Shown in pieces: positions 2,729 through 21,933 of a stretch of 64,000 nucleotides of DNA (its first letter is position 1; every line of letters starts with the position of its first letter). The position numbers were made by a program, and so were the translations under genes. The stretch comes from Gossypium raimondii (taxonomy: Eukaryota; Streptophyta; Magnoliopsida; Malvales; Malvaceae). The DNA lies in assembly GCF_025698545.1 (NCBI RefSeq), contig NC_068572.1, positions 744,001 to 808,000 on the forward strand, read 5' to 3'. The notes below the pieces were generated by a model. That model made no database searches. It was given only the letters and a program-made list of their open reading frames with translations, and was not told the DNA's origin.

Positions 2729-2840
2729 ACTACTCCATCTTCCACAAAACTAATAAGAACTTTCATTTGCTTAAAACTCTTGCATGAATTTGTTGAAAAT
2801 GGTGCAAAAGTTAACATTAACATGGCAAGTAGCACCAAAT
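2729..2840 (+). promoter_or_regulatory. Conserved upstream module of CASP copy 2 (pseudogene)
   Basis: Starts ACTACTCCATCTTCCA and ends with a GGTGCAAAAGTTAACAT-like stretch. The same block stands upstream of the CASP genes at 5939 and 20498, and twice, inverted, at 10048-10526. It lies 200-310 bp before the ATG. Conservation between otherwise diverged upstream regions suggests a promoter element, though shared descent of the duplicated unit would give the same picture. Confidence 0.5.
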
Positions 2841-3042: not shown

Positions 3043-3834
3043 ATGGCCACATACAAAAATGGTGAAACAGCAATAAACATGCCAGAGACAAAAGCCAGTG
3101 TCAAAGGAACAGCCCCATTGTGACGGGGTCTAGTAAAATTTTCAAAAAATTTAGAAATTTAATGAGATTTTTTTTAAAAAAATGGGGTCTAATTAAATTT
3201 TTTGTGAAACTAATGAGAATTTTCAAAAAACTTAAAAAAGTATAATGATAAGTTTCAAAAATTTGAAGAAGCCTAATTGAAATTGTCTAAAAAATTCAAG
3301 GAAAAAAATGAAAAAATTTCCAAAAATTTTAGCGGGGGTTAATTAAATTCTTTTAAAAATTCCAAGGGAAAAATCAAAATTTCCCCTTTTTTTTTCGCGG
3401 GGCCGCACCCCCTAGGCCCCCATAAGGATCCGTCATTGTTGTTAAACTCCTCGAAAGCTGTCACCGTTGCCGTCGAACACCCGAGCCGAGGAGAGAAAAA
3501 AGGGTTTGCCGTCGGCGATTTCATTTTGAGACTATGCACCCTTGGAGCCGCCCTCGGCGCCACCGTAGCAATGGGGAATGCCGAGCAACTTCTTCCTTTT
3601 TTCCACTCAGTTCCTCCAATTCGAAGTTCAGTATGATGATTTCAATATTTTCCTGTATGTTTTTATATTTAAGCATAATCCAAATTAAATAAACATTTGA
3701 TTATCTTATATAGATTATAATTATACTGGGCATAGTTTCTTCTTATCTTTTCCTTTCATTCCCATTCTCTATAATATGCATCATTCGTTCACTTGCAACA
3801 AAGCCAAGGCTCTTCTTTGTCATCTTTGATTCCG
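3043..3834 (+). pseudogene. CASP-like pseudogene, copy 2
   Basis: Broken member of the array. The ATG at 3043 opens a normal CASP N-terminus ending at TAPL. At 3121 a 312-bp insertion begins that brings an immediate TGA. The reading resumes at about 3442 (LNSSKAVTVAVEHP, then [20 protein letters not shown], the first helix). Near 3597-3603 an extra base, compared with the copy at 20498, shifts the frame in the PFFTQFLQF motif. The exon 2 remnant (3727-3834) has lost its acceptor and first codons: TTATAC runs straight into TGGGCATAG, where the intact copy has an extra AGGTTTTTCGTGATGGCAC. I find no exon 3 before the next gene. Four independent lesions make this a clear pseudogene of the subtype at 20498. 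Confidence 0.93.
3121..3432. mobile_element. Insertion in exon 1 of the CASP pseudogene
   Basis: About 312 bp starting TGACGGGGTCTAG and ending GGATCCGTCA, so the termini form a short inverted repeat (TGACGG/CCGTCA). TTG precedes it and follows it, a possible 3-bp target duplication. The GGGGCCGCACCCCCTAGGCC end resembles the repeat at 8650-8875. No coding capacity. Confidence 0.6.
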
Positions 3835-4092
3835 TAAATTCAACTCACACTAGATATATTTATGATTTTTTTTATAGTTAATTTCATTACCAATTACATC
3901 ATTTCTGTCCACTTAGGGTGGGTTTGGATGGGCGGTGCGGTGCGTTTAGCTTACTTTTTGTCTCACGCTACAGTATCACTGCAGTATCTAATCTCACCGC
4001 CACCGCTGTTTTTACACTAACCGCAGGTAAATGCACCGCCCATCCAAACTCACCCTTAATTTCAATTTGGATATCAATACTTAAAACACACG

Positions 4093-5264: not shown

Positions 5265-5352
5265 GATAAAAAAGAGTTATAACCATATATTTTGCCATGT
5301 TGTCATGTTGATTTATTCATTTGTATGATCTTAGCTCGCAAAGAAAAAAAGA

Positions 5353-5461
5353 AACTACTCCATCTTCCATAAACTGAGATCTCTGAGAATAAAACCAATA
5401 TTTTCCTTAAAATTTTGGAAATGGTGCAAGCTAACATCAGCATGCCAACAACTCCAATCTC
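5353..5461 (+). promoter_or_regulatory. Conserved upstream module of CASP copy 3
   Basis: ACTACTCCATCTTCCATAAA, then CTGAGATCTCTGAG, and GGTGCAAGCTAACATCA further on. Preceded by GATTTATTCATTTGTATGAT, a second conserved word. This is the version closest to the orphan inverted repeat at 10048-10526. A MITE (5512-5808) now separates it from the TATA box. Confidence 0.55.
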
Positions 5462-5938: not shown

Positions 5939-8342
5939 ATGGAGACCAATAAAACTATGAGGGAGACAACAATCAACTTGCCGGAGACAAAGGCCGAGGC
6001 TAAAGAAAAAGCCCCATTATTAAACACTTCGAAAGCTATCGCCATCCTCGAACCACCGAATCGAGGAACAAAAAAAGGAATCGCCATCGGCGACTTCGTT
6101 TTGAGACTGTGCACCATCGGAGCCACCCTCGGTGCCACCGTAACAATGGGGAATGCTGATGCTGTCGCTCCTTTTACCACTCGGTTCTTACGGTTTGAAG
6201 CTCAGTTCAATGATATTCCAACTTTCGTGTACGTCTTCTTCTTCTTTTTTTCATATGATAAATCTTTGGAATTCAAATAATTAAACATATATATGTATAT
6301 ATGTATGTATATGTATTGGCTTAATTTTACAGGTTTTTCATGGTGGCCAATGGCATAGTTACTGGCTATCTTTTCCTTTCATTGCCATTCTCTACAATTT
6401 GCATCGTTCGTCCACTTGCAAAAGCTCCGAGGATCCTCCTTGTCATCTTTGATACTGTAAATTCACCTCACTAACTATCTCTTAATAGAGTTGTTCATAA
6501 GAAGGGTGGTCTGTCCGACCTATAAGTCCGGTCTATTTTGGGTGACAAATGAAATGCCTTTTTAAAATATTCTTATTTAATTATAAAAATATATAAATAT
6601 TAGTATAAAAAGTATATATTTTATTATTTTTAAATAGCAATATGGATTTTTGGGCAAGCTGAACTTGATCTCGAATTTGAAAAAAAGTTTAAATTAAAGT
6701 TTTTGTTCAGCCCGACAACTATGGACATCTCTATCCCTGAATATCTTAATATATTTTTTTGATATAATGATAAATTTAGCCCTTAAAATTTGTATCTTTT
6801 GTCAATTTGGCTTTTATTTTTTTTAGCTAAATTTGATTCCCAACCTTTTGAAAATGGTCAAATTGTTGTTTTTAATGAAAATATTGACTAAAATATTAAT
6901 TCTTTTAGCATTGCAGCCCGTAATCCACATGTACTTCATGCTAACTTTTTTTAAATTATTTGTTGACTCGGCATATCAATATGAAGTACACATGGATTGC
7001 CACACAGGTTGTCACATCAACATTGTTAAAAAAATTATGTTTTAGTTAGCATTTCTGTTGAAGAAATGATTTGACTGTTTTTGAAAGGTTAATGGTTAAA
7101 TTTAGCTAAAAAAGAAATAGCCAAATTGACAAAAGATGTAAACGTTGAGGGCTAAATTTATCGTTATGCCTTATTTTAATATTTGTTATTAATATTCTTA
7201 TTCAATCATTAACCTCTTTCTACCCTTAAATAAGATGAAAGTACATGTTTTAGCATGCTCGAACTCACGTTTTCTTCGTTGTTGCAATAGCAACTGAACT
7301 AAAGCTCAACAAGCTAAACTATTAAAAGAGTCCTCCAACTAGTTTACTTTTATTAATTAAGCTCCTATATAGTTTGATTTGTATTTAAATTAGCCCTTAT
7401 TTCAAAATAAAATATTGATTCGTTTTAGGAGTGCTATTTAGGTATAAAGTAAAAGTTAGGGGCTCATTCACATACAAATTAAAAATTAAAGGCTTATCTT
7501 AGTAACAATTAAAGTTTACGGGTTATTTGAGTGTATAAACCGTTGAAAAAAATTAAATCAATTGAAAATTAATATTTTCAGTGATTTAATTTTTCACACA
7601 TGTTTGATAATCTAAAATAAGAACAATCTATATAAAAAAGTATAGAAAATTATAAGTAGACAAGAGCTACGTGAATCGGGTGAAATGTTTAAAAATATAA
7701 GATGTAGAGTATAATTTTTTTATAACTTAAAATTTATATTTATCAAATAATTTAATTATATTTCATAATTAATTTTAAGTAATAAATCAAATATATTTTA
7801 TAACTTAAATTCAATACTTATTTTTCCCGCACTTAATTTCTCGGTATATCAAGCTGACACTTGTCATGCCAAATTAACTGAATTTTGATTAACCTAAGAT
7901 TGTCAAGTAGTTTTGATTTTTCAACTTCTATGTTCGCACCCAAATCTTAATAACATTTAATTACTTGGTATAATATGGACGGAATTAAAGAGTAAAATTA
8001 CATTTTGACTCCTTCAATAATTTATAATTCATTTCTAATCCCTAAAATAATTTTCTGACTTCGTCCCTACGATATAATGTACACATTATGATGATTATTT
8101 TATGATTTCGAACTGAATTATTGCAGGCAATGACAGGTTTAACTCTAGCTTCAGCTTCAGCTGTTGCACCAATTGTGTATTTGGCTCATTATGGGAACCC
8201 AAACACCAATTGGCTTCCTTTTTGTCAACAATTTGGTGATTTTTGTTCAAGTACAAGTGGAGCAATGGTGGGTTCTCTCCTAGCTGGCACACTCTTGATG
8301 ACTATAATTATACTTTCAGCTTTTGCTCTTAAAAGAAATTGA
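5939..8342 (+). CDS. CASP-like membrane protein, copy 3 (intact, 209 aa)
   Basis: Exons 5939-6228, 6333-6456 and 8127-8342; introns are GT-AG and phases match the other copies. The protein has a cytosolic N-terminus with METNK and a PPNRGTKKG basic stretch, helix 1 with the conserved arginine (GDFVLRLC, about residues 51-72), helix 2 (about 98-122), helix 3 starting around the conserved aspartate of VIFDT (about 132-157), extracellular loop 2 with [13 protein letters not shown], helix 4 and SAFALKRN. It is predicted to sit in the plasma membrane and, by family, to scaffold the Casparian strip domain. Extracellular loop 1 is unusual: where the others read LPFFTQF it reads APFTTRF, a change in the signature that distinguishes true CASPs. 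Exon 3 starts GCAATGACAGG where the paralogs have ATGATGG. The long intron 2 holds a MITE and a SINE-like element. Confidence 0.92.
6763..7169. mobile_element. MITE (family B) in CASP copy 3 intron 2
   Basis: Ends are inverted repeats: ATAATGATAAATTTAGCCCT at the left and AGGGCTAAATTTATCGTTAT at the right, with TTTTGTCAATTTGGC and its complement inside. A second copy is at about 38285-38745. No coding capacity. Confidence 0.75.
7190..7325 (-). repeat. SINE-like element in CASP copy 3 intron 2
   Basis: On the reverse strand it reads TAGCTTGTTGAGCTTTAGTT near its 5' end, then GTGAGTTCGAGCATGC, an A-box/B-box arrangement. The same element, with the same following sequence (CTTCAACTAGTTTACTTTTA-like), is in intron 2 of copy 4 at about 15300-15420, so it was inserted before those two copies separated. 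Confidence 0.5.
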
Positions 8343-9589: not shown

Positions 9590-9935
9590 GGAAAATTTAT
9601 TTTATGTCCCTTCCAATACATCATCCATGGTCTAATTTCAATTGTTTAATGACATTTCAACAATTTTTTCCATGTCATTGACATATAATTTTGGTATTTT
9701 TTTTATATTGAACTCGGACTCGAACCCGAAATCCCAAACCTAAACCTTGAACCATGATTCGAGGTTTAAGATTTAGGGTTCAATATTCAAGGTTCGAGAT
9801 TCAGGGTCTGGGATAAAAAAAAACTACCAAAATTATGCGTCAATGACAAGAAAAATATTGTTGAAATGTCATTAAATAAATTAAAAAAGGACCATGGGTG
9901 ATGTGGTGGGAAGAGTCCATAAAATAAGTTATTGA
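9590..9935. mobile_element. Foldback MITE
   Basis: Two arms of about 125 bp face each other: the left carries TTTAATGACATTTCAACAAT and the right TTGTTGAAATGTCATTAAA. The middle is itself a smaller palindrome made of GGTTCGAG/CTCGAACC-like words (about 9715-9805). No coding capacity. Confidence 0.65.
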
Positions 9936-10047
9936 TTTTACGGAATGGATTGCTTTTAAAAAAAGGCGACTAGACTAAATTTTAGTATAAAGACTAAATC
10001 CGCAATTTTCATAAAATTTAGGGACTAATAGCAAAATAACATTTTCT

Positions 10048-10526
10048 ATTCCCATATTGCAACTTTTCTATGTATGTAGGAGTTGTTGCCATGGTGATGT
10101 TAGCTTGCACTATTTTCTAGCATACACATGCGAATATATATATAGCTCAAAGATCTGAGTTTATGGAAGATGGAGCAGGTGTGTTGTTGGTCCTATGTAG
10201 GCTGAGATACTACAAATGAATAAATCATTAGCATGACATGGGAAAATATATGTTTATAACTCTCTTTCTACACTTGATTGGTCTCTATCACTTACATGAA
10301 TATATTGTTGTATATTTGAGGACTGATAGAGACTAATCAAGTGTAGAATGAGTTATGCTTGTATTATCTCAGCCCACATAGGACCAAGAATACAACTGCT
10401 CCATCTTCCATAAACTGAGATCTTTGAGCAATATATATATATATATCTTCGCATGTGTATGCTAGAAAAGTAGTGCAAGTTAAGGCGACAACACTTAAAT
10501 ACATAGAAAAGTTGAAGTATGGGAAT
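10048..10526. repeat. Inverted repeat of the CASP upstream module, no gene attached
   Basis: Left arm 10048-10290 and right arm 10324-10526 are near-perfect reverse complements around a 33-bp spacer. The innermost 23 bp match with one mismatch. The right arm lacks about 40 bp that the left arm has. Reading the right arm forward gives CTGCTCCATCTTCCATAAAC, TGAGATCTTTGAG and GTGCAAGTTAAGGCGACAAC, the same block found upstream of the CASP copies at 5939 and 20498. The left arm, read on the reverse strand, also holds GATTTATTCATTTGTAG and CTAACATCACCATGGCAAC. No CASP exon follows either arm within 3 kb. Confidence 0.85.
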
Positions 10527-10559
10527 AAAATGATTAGTTCTACAACTTTTGTAAAATAT

Positions 10560-11612
10560 AGGGACTAATAATAGAATTTAACCAATAAAAAAAGAATGGG
10601 ATGAAAATCCCCTCCCCCACTTAATACCTCAATACCCCCAATAGAATTTAACCAATAGAAAAAGAGAATGGGATGGAAATCTGTCCTTTATATATATATA
10701 TATATATATATATTTACAATTCAAGTTCGTGATTGTCTTTCTCAATAATATAACATGATAGCATAATATATTTTTTTATTCTAAATGGTAAATAAATTAT
10801 CTTCTATGGCAAAAAAAGTGTTTTTAAAATTTAAAAGAAATGGGGGATTTCTAACGTTTTTTAAATTGAACTGGTGGTCAAATTGGTTAGGACATTGGTC
10901 TCATTGATTCGATTAAAATTTATTAAAAATTTAAAAATAAAAAATTTTGGTTCAATCACTTCAACCGGTTCGTATCAGTTCACTGTCTAATGGTTCAAGG
11001 CCATTCCTCGGGTCGATACCTCAATCAGTTCCTGATCCAACCAATTCAATCATCCTTAGGGATTTCTATAAAAAATTACATTACAATTTAAAATCATATT
11101 GAATAGGATAGCTAAATTGCTTGGACTGAGAATTTATGGTCTAACTGATCCAACACATTATATGAAACCATCCATTCGCATAGTTGGTAAATGCGGGTAA
11201 ATGAGTACCTAGGTTCGAGATCCATTGTGTGTAATTATATATGTGGATCTCCGAATCCTACAATGTTTTGTTGCCATGTGTGAGTTTTATTTCAATTAGA
11301 CAGTTTTAATTTGTTCTGGATTCTTAGTTTGTTTGTGTTGTATTAGTTTGATTTTACACTTTGTAGTTACTTAGACATGTACTCATATTTGTACTTTGAT
11401 TTTACCCACGACGTTAAAAATGTAGCAGTTATTGTTTCGTGAGGACTAAAATTTGAAAGTTTGAAAAATACAAAGACTAAAAATAACTAATTAAAGTATA
11501 AGGATTAAACTCATAAATTTTGTAAACTACAGGGACTAATAGAAGAATTTAACCAATAGAAAAAAAGAATGGGAAGGAAATCCCCTCCCCCAGTTAATGC
11601 CCCAATCCTTAC
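10560..11612. repeat. Direct repeats flanking an 0.8-kb segment
   Basis: A unit of about 40-90 bp with AGAATTTAACCAATAGAAAA and AATCCCCTCCCCCA occurs at about 10570-10620, again at 10640-10685 and again at 11520-11612. Between the second and third lies about 830 bp with a (TA)n tract (10689-10711), a degenerate hAT-type MITE (about 10866-11060) and a SINE-like unit with GGTTCGAGATCC (about 11160-11290). Confidence 0.5.
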
Positions 11613-12466
11613 CTCTTTAAAATAATAGCCTCACGTCCTTTTTTTAATATTAAAGAAAATTTCTTTTAAATATTAAATGACACTTTGGTTGAATGTTATA
11701 AAATATAAATGTTAAAATTATAAAAGTTTGAGTTCGAATTTAGGATAAATTTTAAAACTATACATGAATTTTGGTTTAATGTATAATCGTATACATGAAT
11801 TTTGATTTTGTGCAATTTTATACATGAAATTTCGATTTAATCAAATTCTCGTAAATTATTAACACAATTATTGATATAACATCATGTTATGTTTATATAT
11901 TACATATGTAATAATTATATTTATCCGATATAAAACAGATTGATGGATTTATTTCTTTAAACGCGTATAATTAAATCAAAATTAAAGTTTCAAGTATATG
12001 TTAAAACCACAATGAGAGTTTCACGTGTATAATCGCACCAAATCAAAGTCCATGTATATAATTACGTATTAAATTAAAGTTCATTTATAATTTTGAGATT
12101 TATCCCGAATCTTTTACTATTTTTATATAAAAATATATAATGATAAAATTACCCTCAAAACAATACCGTATATCTTATAAAGTAAAGGTATTTTTATCAT
12201 TAACTAAATGAATTGATGTTCGATTGAGTGGTGACACAAAACTTAGTAATAAATTTAATATTAGTATAAATAATGGGAAAAAGATTACAAAACCAATTTA
12301 ATATAATTTTTATTATTACATAAAAACAATATCACTAAATAAAAAAATCTCACATAAGTTCGATTCCATAAGAATATTTTAGTTTTATTTGGTAAACAAT
12401 ATCATAAAATAAGATACCCTAATTGCAAGCCCAATTTTTTAATCTTACTAAAGATTTAATAAGGGT
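11613..12466. other. Intergenic, repeat-derived
   Basis: About 11750-12120 is a palindromic AT-rich repeat with CATGAATTTTGGTTTAATG-like words; relatives lie near 17290-17610, 22590-22925 and 40240-40500. The rest shows nothing recognisable. Confidence 0.4.
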
Positions 12467-13407
12467 AAATTCTATAAACGGACACTGAACTATTAGTAAA
12501 TTTATTTTTTTATCACTCAACTTCAAAAACCTATAAAATAGTTACTAAACTATTCGAATGTTTTCATTTAAGTCATTGGGTCATTAAAATTGCCGTTATA
12601 TGGCCTTCTCCGTTCCCACCACTAGCACCAATAAAAAAATTCTTCTTCCCTTTCTTTTTTTACATTTTAGTTTTTCTTTCATAAAATAGCTTTAAACTCT
12701 ACGAATTTGCGAAGAAAAATTTGAATAGCTTTCTTTTCTAATATCTGATATTGGCCATCAGATCAACTCAAGGTTGTTTGAATTGGATTGGGTTGGCCGA
12801 TTGGATCGAGAATCGGTTGGGGTACCGGTTTGGAGAAGGGCATTGAACTAGTTGACTCGGGAACCAATACGAATCGGTTGAATTACACAAAAAAACTAGT
12901 TGACCCAAGAATACGTATGGACCAAGCAAAAAATTGGTTGACTCAAGAACTAATACGAACCAGTTGAACCAAGCAATAAACTAGTTAAACCGAGCAGTTG
13001 AACTGGTTGGACTGAATTTTTTAATATTTTTTATTTTTTATGAATTTTTTAATTATTTATTTAATCAAGTTGAATGGACCGGTTGAATTGATAGCCTGAC
13101 CGGTTCGACCATCGGTCTGATTTTGAAAACCTTGAATCAACTTGGATTTAAGGTATGTTTTTTTACTTGTAAATGGGTATTGTTTTACTGTATCAATAGT
13201 TGAATCGTCACTAGGAGCTCGTCTACCATGCTTTAAAAAAAACTTGATAGTCCAGTGACTTAAATGAAAACTTTCAAATAATCGGTGACTATTTTGTAAC
13301 TTTTTGAAGTTAAATATAATCTTAATTGATAGTTCAGTAACCTTCAATATAATTTAACTAAAATATAATCTTAATTGATAGTTCAGTAACCTTCAATATA
13401 ATTTACC
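12467..13407. mobile_element. Composite MITE (family G) upstream of CASP copy 4
   Basis: Starts GGGTAAATTCTATAAACGGA and ends CAATATAATTTACCC; the arms contain CTTCAAAAACCTATAAAATA and TGTAACTTTTTGAAGTTA. A second, uninterrupted copy is at about 56670-57135. It is interrupted at 12769-13134 by another element. It lies directly before the TATA box of CASP copy 4 and has replaced the upstream module found in the other copies. Confidence 0.65.
12769..13134. mobile_element. hAT-type MITE (family D), nested
   Basis: Termini CAAGGTT and AACCTTG. The flanks are GATCAACT (12761-12768) and AATCAACT (13135-13142), an 8-bp duplication with one mismatch, as expected of hAT transposons. The related element at 56670-57135 has the uninterrupted site (AAATCAACTTAG). 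The interior is made of CCGGTTCGACC/GGTTGAACTGG-like words. Confidence 0.8.
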
Positions 13408-13430
13408 CATTTAATAATCATCTTCATCCC

Positions 13431-13439
13431 TATATAAAG
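13431..13439 (+). promoter_or_regulatory. TATA box, CASP copy 4
   Basis: TATATAAAG in CATCCCTATATAAAGGC, 85 bp before the ATG at 13524. Only about 24 bp separate it from the end of the MITE. Confidence 0.7.
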
Positions 13440-13523
13440 GCAAACACTCCAAAAATCTTACACACTCCATTAAGTCATCTTTTTCTCATTGTGCTTTCTT
13501 TTTCCTTAAAATCAAAATCTCTA

Positions 13524-16500
13524 ATGGAGACGGACAAAAGTGTAAAAGAGACAGCCATCAACATGCCGGAGATAAAGTCCGATGATAAAGCAAAAGCCCC
13601 ATTATTAAACTCTTCGAAAGCTATCGCCGTCACCGTCGAACAACCGAACCGAGGATCGAAAAAAGGAATCGCCAGCGGCGACTTCGTTTTGAGACTGTTC
13701 GCCATGGGAGCCGCCCTCGGTGCCGCTGTAACAATGGGGAATAATCAACAAATCCTCCCTTTCTTCACTCAGTTCATTGAGTTCTTAGCTCAGTACAATG
13801 ATATTACCACTTTCGTGTATGTCTTTTCTTTTTGGTAAATTACAATAGTAGTCACTCAATTATATTTTTTTTCTTTTTTTATATAAAAAGTTATAAAATA
13901 GTCATTAACTATTTAATTTTATCTTTTTTAGTCACCCAATTATCTTAGATTTTTGGGTGTGTTCTTTTTTACATTAGGTAGGTAACCAAAAAAGATAAAA
14001 TTGAATAGTTGAGTGACCATTTTGTAACTTTTCATAGTTGGGTGACCAAACACAAAATCTATAGTTGGTGACCTCTACTATAGTGTACCCTTTCTTTTAA
14101 TTTTCTTTTGGTTAAACTATATTAATATTCACCCAACTATTAGTAAATTTCTTCTTTTTTTTTTGTCATCCAATTATAAAAAGTTATAAAATGATCACTC
14201 GACTATTTAATTCTGTCTTTTTTGGTCACCTGACTATTTTGGAATTTTTTGTGTTTACATTTTCATGTTAGTCGGCTGGTGACAAAAAAGACAAAATTGA
14301 ATAGTTGGGTGATCATTTTATAACTTTTCATAGTTGGGTAACCAAAAAAGAAATTTACTAACAGTTGAATGACCTCTACTATAATTTACCCTTTCTTTTA
14401 TTTTTATTTTTTTTCATATAATAAACCTTTGGGATTCAAATAATTTAGTATCGATTATCTAATATATAATATTTATTGACATAATTTTACAGGTATTTCG
14501 TGACTGCAAATGCCGCAGTTGCTGGTTATCTTTTCCTTTCGCTGCCATTCTCTGTGATCTGCATTAATCGTCCACTTGCAACGACGCCGAGGCTCGTCCT
14601 TGTTATCTTTGATACTGTAAAATCAACTCACTATTTATCTCCATATCTCTTGCTTTATTATTATTTTTTATATTGAATTGGGTTGGAATCATATTGGTTA
14701 GTCGGGTCGGTTGAATTCAGAATCAGTCAGGGTATTAGTCCGAAGAGAGGCGTTGGACTAGTTGACCCGCGAAATAATTGAACATGACTAAAAAATCTAG
14801 TTGAACCATTTTTAATTTTTTTTATTTTATGAATTTTAATAATTTATTTAATCAAACTGTACAAATAGTTCTGACCATCAAACCATTGGCCTGACTGGTT
14901 TGGTTCTATAACCTTGCTTGTAATCCCTAACTAAGGGTGTAATTGAACTGAGCCTGAATATTGGTAACCTCGAGCTTGATCGAACATCTTTTTTTTAGGC
15001 TCGAGCTCAACTTGAGTTATAATTAGGCTACTTGAGCTTGAGCTAGATTTAAGCTCATGTATTTTCGAACTCGAGCTTGGCTTGATAATTAAACTTGAGG
15101 TTAATAATATATTAAGGGCAAAAACATAATTTAATAATATGAAATATTTAAAATGTGTATTAAAAATGAAAAACTTGATAAAGCTTGTGAGTTGTTTGAG
15201 CCAAGTATTTACGAAGCTCGAATTTGGTGGACAAGTACTAAATCGAGTTGGATTTTTCTTTCGAGTCAAACTTGAGTAGCTTGCAAGTACTAACGTCTCA
15301 TTTACACTCTGTCAACCTTTAAATTAGAGAATAATACATGTTTAAGTATACTCGAACCTAAATGTCCTCTTAGTTGTTGCAATAGCAACCATACCAATCG
15401 AGTTAAGTTTGAATCAATGTTTTTTTCTTTAATATTTGAGATTAACATCCCTCTTCAATGCATATAATGACAAAAAAGTTCAAATTATTAAAAAAACCCT
15501 TCAACTAGTTTACTTTTATTCATTAAGCTCTTATTATTTTATTTGTATTTAAATTAGCCCTTATTTCAAATAAAATATTGATTTATATTAAGAGTGTTAT
15601 TTAGGTATAAACTAAAATTTAGGGGCTCATTCACATATAAATTAAAAATCAGAGGCTTATTTGATTATCAATTAAAGTTTATGGGTTATTCGAGTATACA
15701 AGAGTATAAAGGCTTATTTAAATAAAGTAACAAAGTGTAAGGGCTTATTTAGTATAAGCCATGAAAAACTTAGAAATGAACATAATTGAAATTTGAAGGT
15801 AAAATTCAAATTTTGGCCCTTTCCTATACTTTAATTTAGCATATTTTGATTCCTCATTTTATAATTTCATTAATTAGTCCAACTAATTAGTATGATTAAC
15901 TATTCTAGTTAAAATAATAAAGTGGATTTTAGAAAAGAAAAAGGAAAAGGGAAGTTTTAAGGAAAATTCCAAGTGAAAGTATTAATAATGTTAATTATTT
16001 GGACTAAATAATGACAATATAAAAGTATATGAATTAAATTATATCAAATTAAGTACAAAGATTAAATTCAAATTTGAGTAAAGGGACCAAAATCAGAATT
16101 TAACCGAAATTTGATTACTATCGAGTAGCTTTGGGACTTTTCAAATAGGAACAAAACAACATTTAGTTCTTGAACTTGGCAATTTTTCCCAACTTGGTCT
16201 TAGAACTTCTTTTTTCCAGCTTGGTCTAAGTTCGTAGATTAATCTAGACAAAAAAAAAAAGAGTTAAAAGGACCAAGTTCGAGGACTAAATGTTGTTTTA
16301 TCCCTTAAACACTAGCTATAAGATAAGTATGACAATGTTATTTTATGGTTTGAAACATTAATTAGCTCTTAGATTGTTGTAGGAAATGGTGCAATTAATT
16401 TTTTTTAATACAATGCCTACTCCTACCCATAGTCCCCTTATCTTGAAATAGAGAAAATGTGCTTAAGCACGTGTAAACCTACACCCTCTTTCTTGTTACA

Positions 16501-16907
16501 ATAACAATAATACCAATTAAACTAAGACTCAATTAACAACTTTTCTTTTAAATATACATGATTGATATCGAAATATGAATACGGAGATTTAATATTTACA
16601 CTCGAGTTTTAATAACATTTAGTTTACCTAGTATAATGTCCTTGTTATGATCGTTATTTTATAATTTCAAAGGGTACTTAGTTGTAGACTATTGCAGGTG
16701 ATGATGGGTATAACTATAACCGCAGCTTCAGCTTCAGCATCGATGGTGTATTTGGCTCATAACGGGAACCAAAACACGATGTGGCTTCCTTTTTGTCAAC
16801 AATTTGGTAATTTCTGTCAGACTGCAAGTGGAGCAGTGGTGGGTTCTCTCATAGCCGGCACATTCCTCATGTTTATAATTATCCTTTCAGCTTTTGCTCT
16901 GAAATGA
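13524..16907 (+). CDS. CASP-like membrane protein, copy 4 (208 aa)
   Basis: Exons 13524-13816, 14493-14616 and 16698-16907, all GT-AG. Same architecture as its neighbours: METDK N-terminus, helix 1 with GDFVLRLF, an extracellular loop 1 that keeps LPFFTQF, helix 2 ([14 protein letters not shown]), helix 3 from VIFDT, loop 2 with [11 protein letters not shown], helix 4, then SAFALK. The reading stops two residues early: the codon after ALK is TGA where the other copies have AGA, so the usual basic RN tail is lost. The second intron holds a SINE-like element also present in copy 3, which makes these two sister copies. No frame lesion, so I judge it functional, but its upstream region lacks the conserved module (see 10048-10526 and 12467-13407). 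Confidence 0.92.
13838..14395. repeat. Two palindromic MITEs (family C) in tandem, CASP copy 4 intron 1
   Basis: The first (about 13838-14095) and second (about 14113-14395) each contain a TTTTTGGTCACC arm and its complement (GTGACCAAAAA or GGTGACAAAAAAG) and end CTACTATAGTGTACCC and CTACTATAATTTACCC. They account for most of the intron's extra length compared with copies 3 and 5. Confidence 0.7.
14665..14917. repeat. Degenerate hAT-type MITE (family D), CASP copy 4 intron 2
   Basis: Reads GAATTGGGTTGGAATC near the left and GGTTCTATAACCTTG at the right, matching the interior and right terminus of the element at 12769-13134. The termini are worn and no target duplication is clear. Confidence 0.5.
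15300..15420 (-). repeat. SINE-like element, CASP copy 4 intron 2
   Basis: The reverse strand carries an A-box-like and a TAGGTTCGAGTATAC box-B-like word. Its position and following sequence match the element at 7190-7325 in copy 3. A second reverse unit is at about 16400-16560, and a foldback repeat with ACAACATTTAGTTCTTGAAC and its complement is at 16151-16305. Confidence 0.45.
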
Positions 16908-20211: not shown

Positions 20212-20330
20212 CTACTGACTACATCTTCCATGAATTGATATCCTTCAGCAAAATCTTCACATTTTCGCATGAAATTGTTGAAAATGGAGTAAGTTAAGAT
20301 CACCAAGCAACAACTCCAATCCATATGCAC
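20212..20330 (+). promoter_or_regulatory. Conserved upstream module of CASP copy 5
   Basis: ACTACATCTTCCATGAATTG, then TCTTCACATTTTCGCATG and a TTGTTGAAAATGGAG stretch that matches the module at 2729-2840. It ends about 170 bp before the ATG. Between it and the gene the TATA box has been replaced by a long TA run (20391-20411). Confidence 0.5.
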
Positions 20331-20497: not shown

Positions 20498-21933
20498 ATG
20501 GCGACGGATAAAAGTGGTGAGATAGCAATCAACATGGCGGAGACAAAAGCCAGTGCTAAAGGAACAGCCCCATTGTTAAACTATTCGAAAGCTGTCGCCG
20601 CCGTAGAACCACCGAATCGAGGAGCGAAAAAAGGGCTCGCTATTGGCGACTTTGTATTAAGACTGTGCGCACTTGGAGCCGCCCTCGGCGCAACTGTAGC
20701 AATGGGGACTGCCGATCAACTTCTCCCTTTCTTCACTCAATTCCTCCAGTTCGAAGCTCAGTACGATGATTTCGATGCTTTCCGGTATGTATTTTATTTA
20801 TTTATTTATTTGTATATTGAAGTGTTAAAAGTAATGAGATTTTTGTACTAAAAGTGAATAAATAAATTCTTATATATTACATCAAAAAGTAAGTGTATTT
20901 TTTCTATTTAAAAATCGGTAGGCTGAAGAAATAACAAACAATAACACATTATGTGCATGTGTACCTTTATATGACATATAAAGACTAATTTTAAAAGTAA
21001 AATAGATGAATTTAAAAAAATGATAAATTTACCCTTTGATCTAACTTGCATAAACTATTTTGTTCTTTTTTTATTATAAAAGATAAAATATAAAACTAAC
21101 TCTTAGTACAAGATTCTCGATGATACTTTTATCATATCTAAAACATTGGATTATTTGATATATATATCTATTGACTATAATTATACAGGTTTTTCGTGAT
21201 GGCACTGGGCATAGTTTCTTGTTATCTTCTCCTTTCATTGCCACTCTCCATAATCTGCATCATTCGTCCACTTGCAACAACGCCAAGGCTCTCCCTTGTC
21301 ATCTTTGATTCCGTAATACCAACTCACTATATATTTTATATAGATACATTAATGATTTTCTCAGGGCTAAATTGTTATAAACTTCAAATGTTATAATACT
21401 ACGTCAATTATTCCATCAACTTAGCCGTCAATTAAGGTTTAATTTTTAATTTGAATATTTAAAACACGTGGATAACATTATAAACACGTGTATATTTATC
21501 GTATGAATTTGAGGTGAAATGATTTTTTTTATCGCATCAAATTCAATCACGTATTAGTGTTCCAAATATGTTCTAGGTAAGATTCGCTAAACATAAATAG
21601 GTAGATTTCCTTCGCACACGAATCAAAATAGTATTAAATTAGTGGGTATAATGTATTTGGTTGTTATGATGGTTATTTTATGGTTTTGAAGGATAATTAT
21701 TTGTTGGATTGCTGCAGATGATGGCGGCTTTAACCATAGCTGCAGGTTCAGCATCTGCATCGATGGTGTATTTGGCTCATAACGGGAACGATGACGTGAA
21801 TTGGCTTCCTTTTTGTCAACAATTTGGTGATTTTTGCCAAAGTGCAAGTGGAGCAGTGATAGGTTCTCTATTAGCTGCTGCACTCCTCTTGATTATAATT
21901 ATCCTTTCAGCTTTTGCTCTTAAAAGAAACTGA
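20498..21933 (+). CDS. CASP-like membrane protein, copy 5 (intact, 208 aa)
   Basis: Exons 20498-20784, 21189-21312 and 21718-21933 with clean GT-AG junctions and the shortest introns of the array. The N-terminus [10 protein letters not shown] is cytosolic; helix 1 (residues about 50-71) has R55; loop 1 is [13 protein letters not shown], a good match to the CASP signature; helix 2 is about 97-121; helix 3 (about 131-155) starts near D136; loop 2 has C170 and C177 in [11 protein letters not shown]; helix 4 is about 183-203; the tail is ALKRN. It is expected in the plasma membrane of endodermal cells as a scaffold for lignin deposition. Sequence outside the exons and the last exon itself are closest to copy 1 and to the pseudogene, so this copy and copies 1-2 form one subtype and copies 3-4 another. 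No lesion seen. Confidence 0.95.

Follow-up and report, generated by a model that had tools for sequence, protein, structure and literature searches.

The CASP array and its palindrome

CASPs are membrane proteins of the root barrier in plants, and chromosome C8 of Gossypium raimondii carries an array of six CASP copies, every one of them on the + strand (Table 1). Upstream of copy 4 lies a long inverted repeat made of sequence that is otherwise found in front of the CASP copies, and the question is whether this palindrome serves as a self-made trigger of silencing within the array or is a displaced and duplicated piece of promoter. Both possibilities were raised in a preliminary description of the locus, the latter as the simpler reading. 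The window, i.e., the whole stretch of 64,000 nucleotides under study (C8:744001-808000), was analyzed within a neighbourhood of 93 kb, in which negative positions lie to the left of the window, and searches were extended to the 750.8-Mb genome (281 contigs, of which C1-C13 are chromosome-sized).

Table 1. Features of the CASP array and of the palindrome (positions are those of the window)
Feature	Position	Strand	Remarks
CASP copy 0	exon 1 from -8263	+	starts left of the window; three exons read open, no joined frame from the script
CASP copy 1	from -760	+	starts left of the window; frame of 208-209 aa
Homologous upstream block of CASP copy 2	2729-2840	+	
CASP copy 2	3043-3836	+	pseudogene
Upstream region of CASP copy 3	5269-5455	+	sole other genome-search match of the inverted repeat
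CASP copy 3	5939-8341	+	209-aa reading frame, Pfam PF04535
Neighbouring inverted repeat	9594-9930		dispersed MITE-like family; control, outside the palindrome, 114 bp to its left
Left arm	10044-10290 (10048-10290, 243 bp)	-	inverted copy of CASP upstream region; block at 10156-10175 on the - strand
Spacer (loop)	10291-10323		33 bp
Right arm	10324-10530 (10324-10526, 203 bp)	+	CASP upstream region in the orientation of copy 4; block at 10399-10418
DNA between the right arm and the copy 4 proximal promoter	10531-13394		2864 bp
Proximal promoter and 5′ leader of CASP copy 4	13395-13523	+	aligns with its counterparts in copies 2, 3 and 5
CASP copy 4	13524-16907	+	three exons, 208-aa reading frame, Pfam PF04535
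Homologous upstream block of CASP copy 5	20212-20330	+	
CASP copy 5	20498-21932	+	frame of 208-209 aa

A genome-wide search with exon 1 of copy 3 returned nine matches, six of which were the array copies and three lay elsewhere (40-50% identity). Open frames of 208-209 aa are present in copies 1, 3, 4 and 5, and the two of the six copies that were scanned for protein domains, copies 3 and 4, matched CASP_dom (PF04535) with E-values of 8.2e-41 and 2.9e-42, respectively. Exon 1 of the copy 2 pseudogene is broken by inserted sequence, and a search for exon 3 of this copy found none. Consecutive CASP genes on cotton chromosome 8 have been published (PMC7199351); according to that paper, five such genes of G. 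arboreum are all highly expressed in roots, and these probably represent the orthologous array. It also reports no tandem duplicated CASP pairs for G. raimondii, yet five Gorai.004G CASP genes in its list bear consecutive numbers; in contrast to that report, the array studied here is plainly tandem.

The inverted repeat had been placed at 10048-10526, with arms of 243 and 203 bp and a spacer of 33 bp, and our coordinates agree. Aligned with its own reverse complement, the segment 10044-10530 gave an E-value of 2.1e-75 in the 93-kb neighbourhood and of 2.6e-71 in the genome search. Of 198 aligned positions, the two arms are identical at 182 and differ by substitution at 16 (8 transitions and 8 transversions), and their alignment has 58 gap columns; identical stretches of 22 and 21 bp are shared between them, and ca. 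40 bp that are kept in the left arm and are also present upstream of copy 3 are absent from the right arm. Artefactual palindromes occur in long-read assemblies. An artefact of assembly or of a fold-back read would, however, give nearly identical arms, and with 16 substitutions per 198 positions and several indels, such an origin is extremely unlikely.

No target-site duplication was seen by eye at the ends of 10044-10530. Similar ends of a dispersed repeat family, 73% identical and in the same orientation, flank the palindrome at 9986-10037 and 10526-10577, and they are possibly linked to the rearrangement that formed it, as a breakpoint inside a dispersed repeat. There is also a direct duplication of 141 columns (10497-10633 and 11466-11606, 77% identical) whose start falls within the right arm's outer end, and the outermost arm bases of the palindrome may be repeat-derived. 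A search of literature titles revealed no description of this palindrome, which does not prove that none exists.

Search for further copies in the genome

We searched the genome with the segment 10030-10545. Two candidates were scored, and four matches, all of them inside the CASP array, were retrieved: the query itself on both strands and two pieces upstream of copy 3. Since the search may skip very common words, the absence of other matches is not absolute. When the copy 3 block was used as the genome query, it retrieved itself, the two arms and copy 5, and nothing else. The same search was performed with two other inverted repeats as controls. The neighbouring repeat at 9594-9930 gave at least 103 matches, with the best 40 of 708 candidates scored, and a 1.16-kb inverted repeat upstream of copy 0 gave at least 151, with the best 40 of 468 candidates scored. 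The latter repeat (L010:238-1401, i.e., C8:734238-735401, to the left of the window) is 71% identical to its own reverse complement and belongs to a dispersed family. It stops ca. 17 bp short of the copy 0 upstream block, so that a repeat element stands directly against that promoter.

Inverted repeats are common locally (59 in 93 kb, counted after rows with less than 12% GC had been removed), and 10044-10530 ranks second among them by score. It is set apart from the others by having been found once in the genome and by being made of gene-flanking DNA. In its palindromic form and its length it resembles MITE or foldback elements, from which the same two properties distinguish it. A transposable element of this kind that captured CASP upstream sequence might well be looked for in a MITE-rich region, where both 9594-9930 and the repeat to the left of copy 0 represent such families. 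Yet the dispersed multiple copies typical of MITEs and foldback elements were not found for 10044-10530 in the genome search, and with two candidates and four array matches, against the 708 and 468 candidates of the controls, capture by an element is very improbable.

The upstream block in the six copies

The sequence that the arms share with the CASP upstream regions had been described as a promoter module. Its 20-bp block, CTCCATCTTCCATAAACTGA, occurs at positions 10399 (+ strand, exact), 10156 (- strand, one mismatch), 5358 (+ strand, exact) and 20219 (+ strand, three mismatches), and shuffled sequence yields 0.03 matches on average. The block of the right arm is thus the same as that of copy 3, and that of the left arm has one change. 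Each of the six CASP copies on C8 has an alignable, homologous 5′ flank block upstream, those of copies 0 and 1 being located near -8582 and -1046. The distance between the block and the start codon is ca. 280-320 bp in copies 0, 1, 2 and 5; it is 581 bp in copy 3, which contains extra DNA between the two. The block core and the GTGCAAG part are, by eye, the portions most alike over the six copies. The "module" is thus the ordinary homologous 5′ flank of the six genes and not a separate movable unit.

We also considered the block as a general motif and rejected this possibility. Genome-wide 20-mer matches with up to three mismatches (49 + 35) were about as numerous as those of a reversed control (40 + 37), and at five of the six sites with two mismatches (L004-L008) no more than 43 bases could be aligned with the repeat.

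The probably displaced flank of copy 4

For this and the following comparisons, 420 21-mers of the repeat with at least five G or C, and 447 24-mers, were matched against the 1.5-kb upstream regions of the copies. Copy 4 retains near the gene merely the last ca. 130 bp of the homologous flank. None of the 420 21-mers was found with up to four mismatches within 1.5 kb upstream of it, in agreement with the description of this copy as lacking the distal block. Oriented like copy 4, the right arm is located ca. 3.1 kb further upstream, its block being 3125 bp before the start codon. The palindrome had been presented as having no gene attached; it is better read as having copy 4, 3.1 kb downstream, as its gene.

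The DNA that separates the right arm from the proximal promoter was compared with other parts of the genome. Matches to a sample of 18 loci (180 kb) covered 1123 of the 2864 bases; once genome hits were added, matches outside the neighbourhood covered 1692, and together with the rest of the 93-kb neighbourhood they covered 2051 (59-72%). The bases with no match at all number 813, or 1172 if neighbourhood matches are excluded, and with so many bases unmatched the view that the gap would be insertion throughout is not supported. The proposal that a MITE fills the region upstream of copy 4 fits an inverted pair of segments located there, at 12466-12579 and 13252-13356.

The orientation of the left arm would suit the promoter of a leftward gene, and one may thus ask whether the palindrome is the remnant of a CASP gene that once stood head-to-head with copy 4; deletion of its coding part would leave a promoter palindrome. 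No CASP exon match was found on the - strand, either with the whole protein in 93 kb or with exon 1 genome-wide. Furthermore, the arms are alike to their outer ends, whereas the blastn homology with copy 3 ends 18-35 bp short of them (a looser alignment of the arms with copy 3 continues past this point). Likeness of the arms beyond the copy 3 homology would suit a local duplication over a lost CASP gene, though not to the exclusion of the latter. Taken with the exon searches, it makes the lost gene an improbable source of the palindrome.

Relative age of the inverted duplication

The K2P distance between the two arms is 0.086. The arms are separated from copy 3 by distances of 0.203 and 0.210 (for the left arm, 40 substitutions in 225 aligned bases) and from the other copies by 0.181-0.254; the sister blocks differ among themselves by 0.111-0.205. 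Since the arm-arm distance is far smaller than the distances between the arms and the sister blocks, the inversion took place after the copies had separated. The possibility that the palindrome is a recent copy of the copy 3 promoter was rejected, as the distance of 0.20-0.21 is far above that between the arms.

Copy 3 is no nearer to the arms than copy 5 (0.185 and 0.181) or, where the left arm is concerned, copy 1 (0.198). Copy 3 stands out merely by the length of its alignments (225 and 164 bases, against 110-172) and by coding dS, the value for copies 3 and 4 (0.288) being the minimum for either copy among copies 1, 3, 4 and 5. Unlike dS, neither dN nor protein identity sets this pair apart: the dN of copy 4 is 0.204 to copy 3, against 0.192 to copy 1 and 0.199 to copy 5, and the corresponding protein identities are 0.671, 0.681 and 0.671. 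The proximal segment of copy 4 is closer to copy 3 (K2P 0.132 over 116 bases) than the arms are.

With copy 3 as the reference, 8 changes since the duplication fall to the left arm and 10 to the right arm, with 4 assigned to neither; this three-way alignment contains 22 differences between the arms, against 16 in the pairwise alignment. Such nearly equal change in both arms is not what a retained distal regulatory element would lead one to expect, and repeat DNA lies between the arms and copy 4. An element of this type would be an enhancer that still works over 3.1 kb, either for copy 4 alone or for copies 3 and 4 together, and it could account for the core and the GTGCAAG part looking most alike over the six copies and for a 20-bp block that is unchanged from copy 3 in the right arm and carries one change in the left. 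On balance, we consider enhancer function unlikely.

A- and D-genome cottons differ at silent sites by ca. 0.03-0.04. If this value holds, the palindrome should predate the split of the two genomes and occur in both. In the part of PMC7203013 that is available, no value for this divergence is given.

Capacity for a hairpin and predicted reach of small RNAs

The palindrome had been predicted to fold into a long hairpin if transcribed, and the calculated folds are strong. The + strand RNA folds with -283.3 kcal/mol (z = -30.6), while shuffled sequences have a mean of -110.4 (sd 5.7) and none of 100 was as stable; the fold of the - strand RNA is -254.7 kcal/mol. As in the PAI genes of Arabidopsis, the arms are near-complementary and able to fold as one RNA, as judged by the fold energy and by the 182 identities in 198 positions. 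By this modelling, the hairpin is to be regarded as a capacity of the sequence and not as a demonstrated product. A microRNA gene was considered and rejected: 16 Rfam matches up to an E-value of 10 (five up to 1) were all under the gathering score, the best scoring 46.8 bits against the 144 needed, and nominal E-values as low as 3.6e-8 are ascribed to the long hairpin. The asymmetry of G:U wobbles between the arms (6 on the + RNA and 2 on the - RNA) is too small to use.

Small RNAs from the palindrome were expected to match the upstream regions of the sister genes. Upstream of copy 3, 5 of the 420 21-mers match exactly and 56 match with up to two mismatches. The predicted reach is narrower than had been proposed: the upstream region of the copy 2 pseudogene is matched by a single 21-mer at up to two mismatches, and those of copies 0, 1 and 5 and the proximal region of copy 4 by none. 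The 24-mers gave the same picture (at copy 3, 2 of 447 exact and 42 with up to two mismatches; at the other copies, 0), and 20 shuffles per region produced no matches at these levels. Since the matches are concentrated at copy 3, such RNAs would reach copy 3 and their own source, the palindrome, and not the whole array.

Three TATAAA words of the + strand (9368, 9482 and 9986) lie to the left of the palindrome; the - strand has one at 9702 and another, at 10253, that falls within the left arm. Their density (5 in 1.3 kb) equals that of the neighbourhood (357 in 93 kb, both strands), and the words therefore neither show nor exclude a promoter. By its orientation, each arm would be expected to drive transcription away from the loop; a hairpin RNA would thus need an outside promoter.

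These observations bear on the proposal of a self-made silencing trigger, in which a hairpin transcript would be cut by Dicer-like enzymes and the resulting small RNAs would methylate the copy 3 upstream region and the palindrome, i.e., the displaced promoter of copy 4. The fold of -283.3 kcal/mol, the identical arm stretches of 22 and 21 bp, the exact 21-mer (5/420) and 24-mer (2/447) matches at copy 3 and, at chance density, the TATAAA words on the + strand to the left all suit it. So does a published case: the head-to-head VIM4-VIM2 inverted repeat of Arabidopsis Cvi-0 makes small RNAs, and PMC13213937 describes alternative transcripts that cross its centre, siRNAs, and arms that are 100% identical over the first exon and intron. 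With this case also being head-to-head, orientation alone does not exclude a trigger. On the other hand, the arms of the cotton palindrome would direct transcription outward from the loop, they differ by 16 substitutions and 58 gap columns against the 100% identity of the Cvi-0 arms, and the reach is essentially copy 3. In addition, the members of the probably orthologous G. arboreum array are all reported in PMC7199351 to be highly expressed in roots, so that none is plainly silenced there. We regard the silencing trigger as improbable.

Comparison with known systems

The parallel drawn in the preliminary description, Arabidopsis PAI1-PAI4 (Ws, Cvi), is likewise an inverted duplication within a small gene family, with potential fold-back RNA matching its relatives. 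PAI1-PAI4 is transcribed from a heterologous promoter ca. 500 bp upstream, according to PMC3203196; unlike PAI with its outside promoter, the palindrome described here is known from sequence alone. Furthermore, PAI duplicates genes tail to tail, whereas here solely the 5′ flank is duplicated, and the aligned arm bases have diverged by ca. 8%. With VIM4-VIM2 of Cvi-0, the palindrome shares the head-to-head layout with 5′ parts near the centre; unlike the Cvi-0 arms, which are identical over exon 1 and intron 1, its arms are without coding sequence.

A further likeness is to SMI of Brassica, where a local inverted stretch is similar to a related gene's promoter region, and to the precursors acting in S-locus dominance. 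Related small-RNA precursors of the Arabidopsis S-locus are the subject of PMC13128112. In those systems, function was shown by genetics, whereas the cotton palindrome is a purely sequence-based candidate and lacks a setting of allelic dominance.

Probable origin and implications

We conclude that the palindrome is probably copy 4's own distal upstream region, displaced from the gene and then duplicated in inverted orientation after the copies had split. The simpler of the two original readings is thus the one favoured by the evidence: the right arm is oriented and placed as the upstream flank of copy 4 should be, copy 4 still has the proximal end of that flank beside it, DNA elsewhere matches 59-72% of the 2.9-kb gap, the repeat is single in the genome search, and the arms are much closer to each other than to any sister block. 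Repeats would have been inserted between the distal and the proximal parts of the copy 4 promoter, and a local rearrangement, by fold-back or template-switch repair, would then have put an inverted copy beside the displaced part.

If the palindrome is the displaced flank of copy 4, we are inclined to think that it now does nothing gene-specific. It would be a decaying relic, perhaps methylated along with the surrounding repeats, and copy 4 would be driven by its remaining proximal promoter. There is a slim chance that this promoter-only inverted duplication is an old, standing source of small RNAs, which would methylate the copy 3 upstream region in trans and the displaced upstream region of copy 4 in cis. 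If that is true, the lost promoter part of one member of the array regulates a sister, and the array itself gave rise to a promoter-targeting hairpin.

Small-RNA loci, and epigenetic differences between duplicated genes, are known to arise, among other routes, by inverted duplication close to genes. The palindrome of the G. raimondii CASP array is an example of which the genome search found a single copy, and it has a partly datable history, in which the copies split, the flank was displaced and the inverted copy was added. With a well-defined possible target, the region upstream of copy 3, it is an easily tested candidate for such a locus and not a new kind of system.
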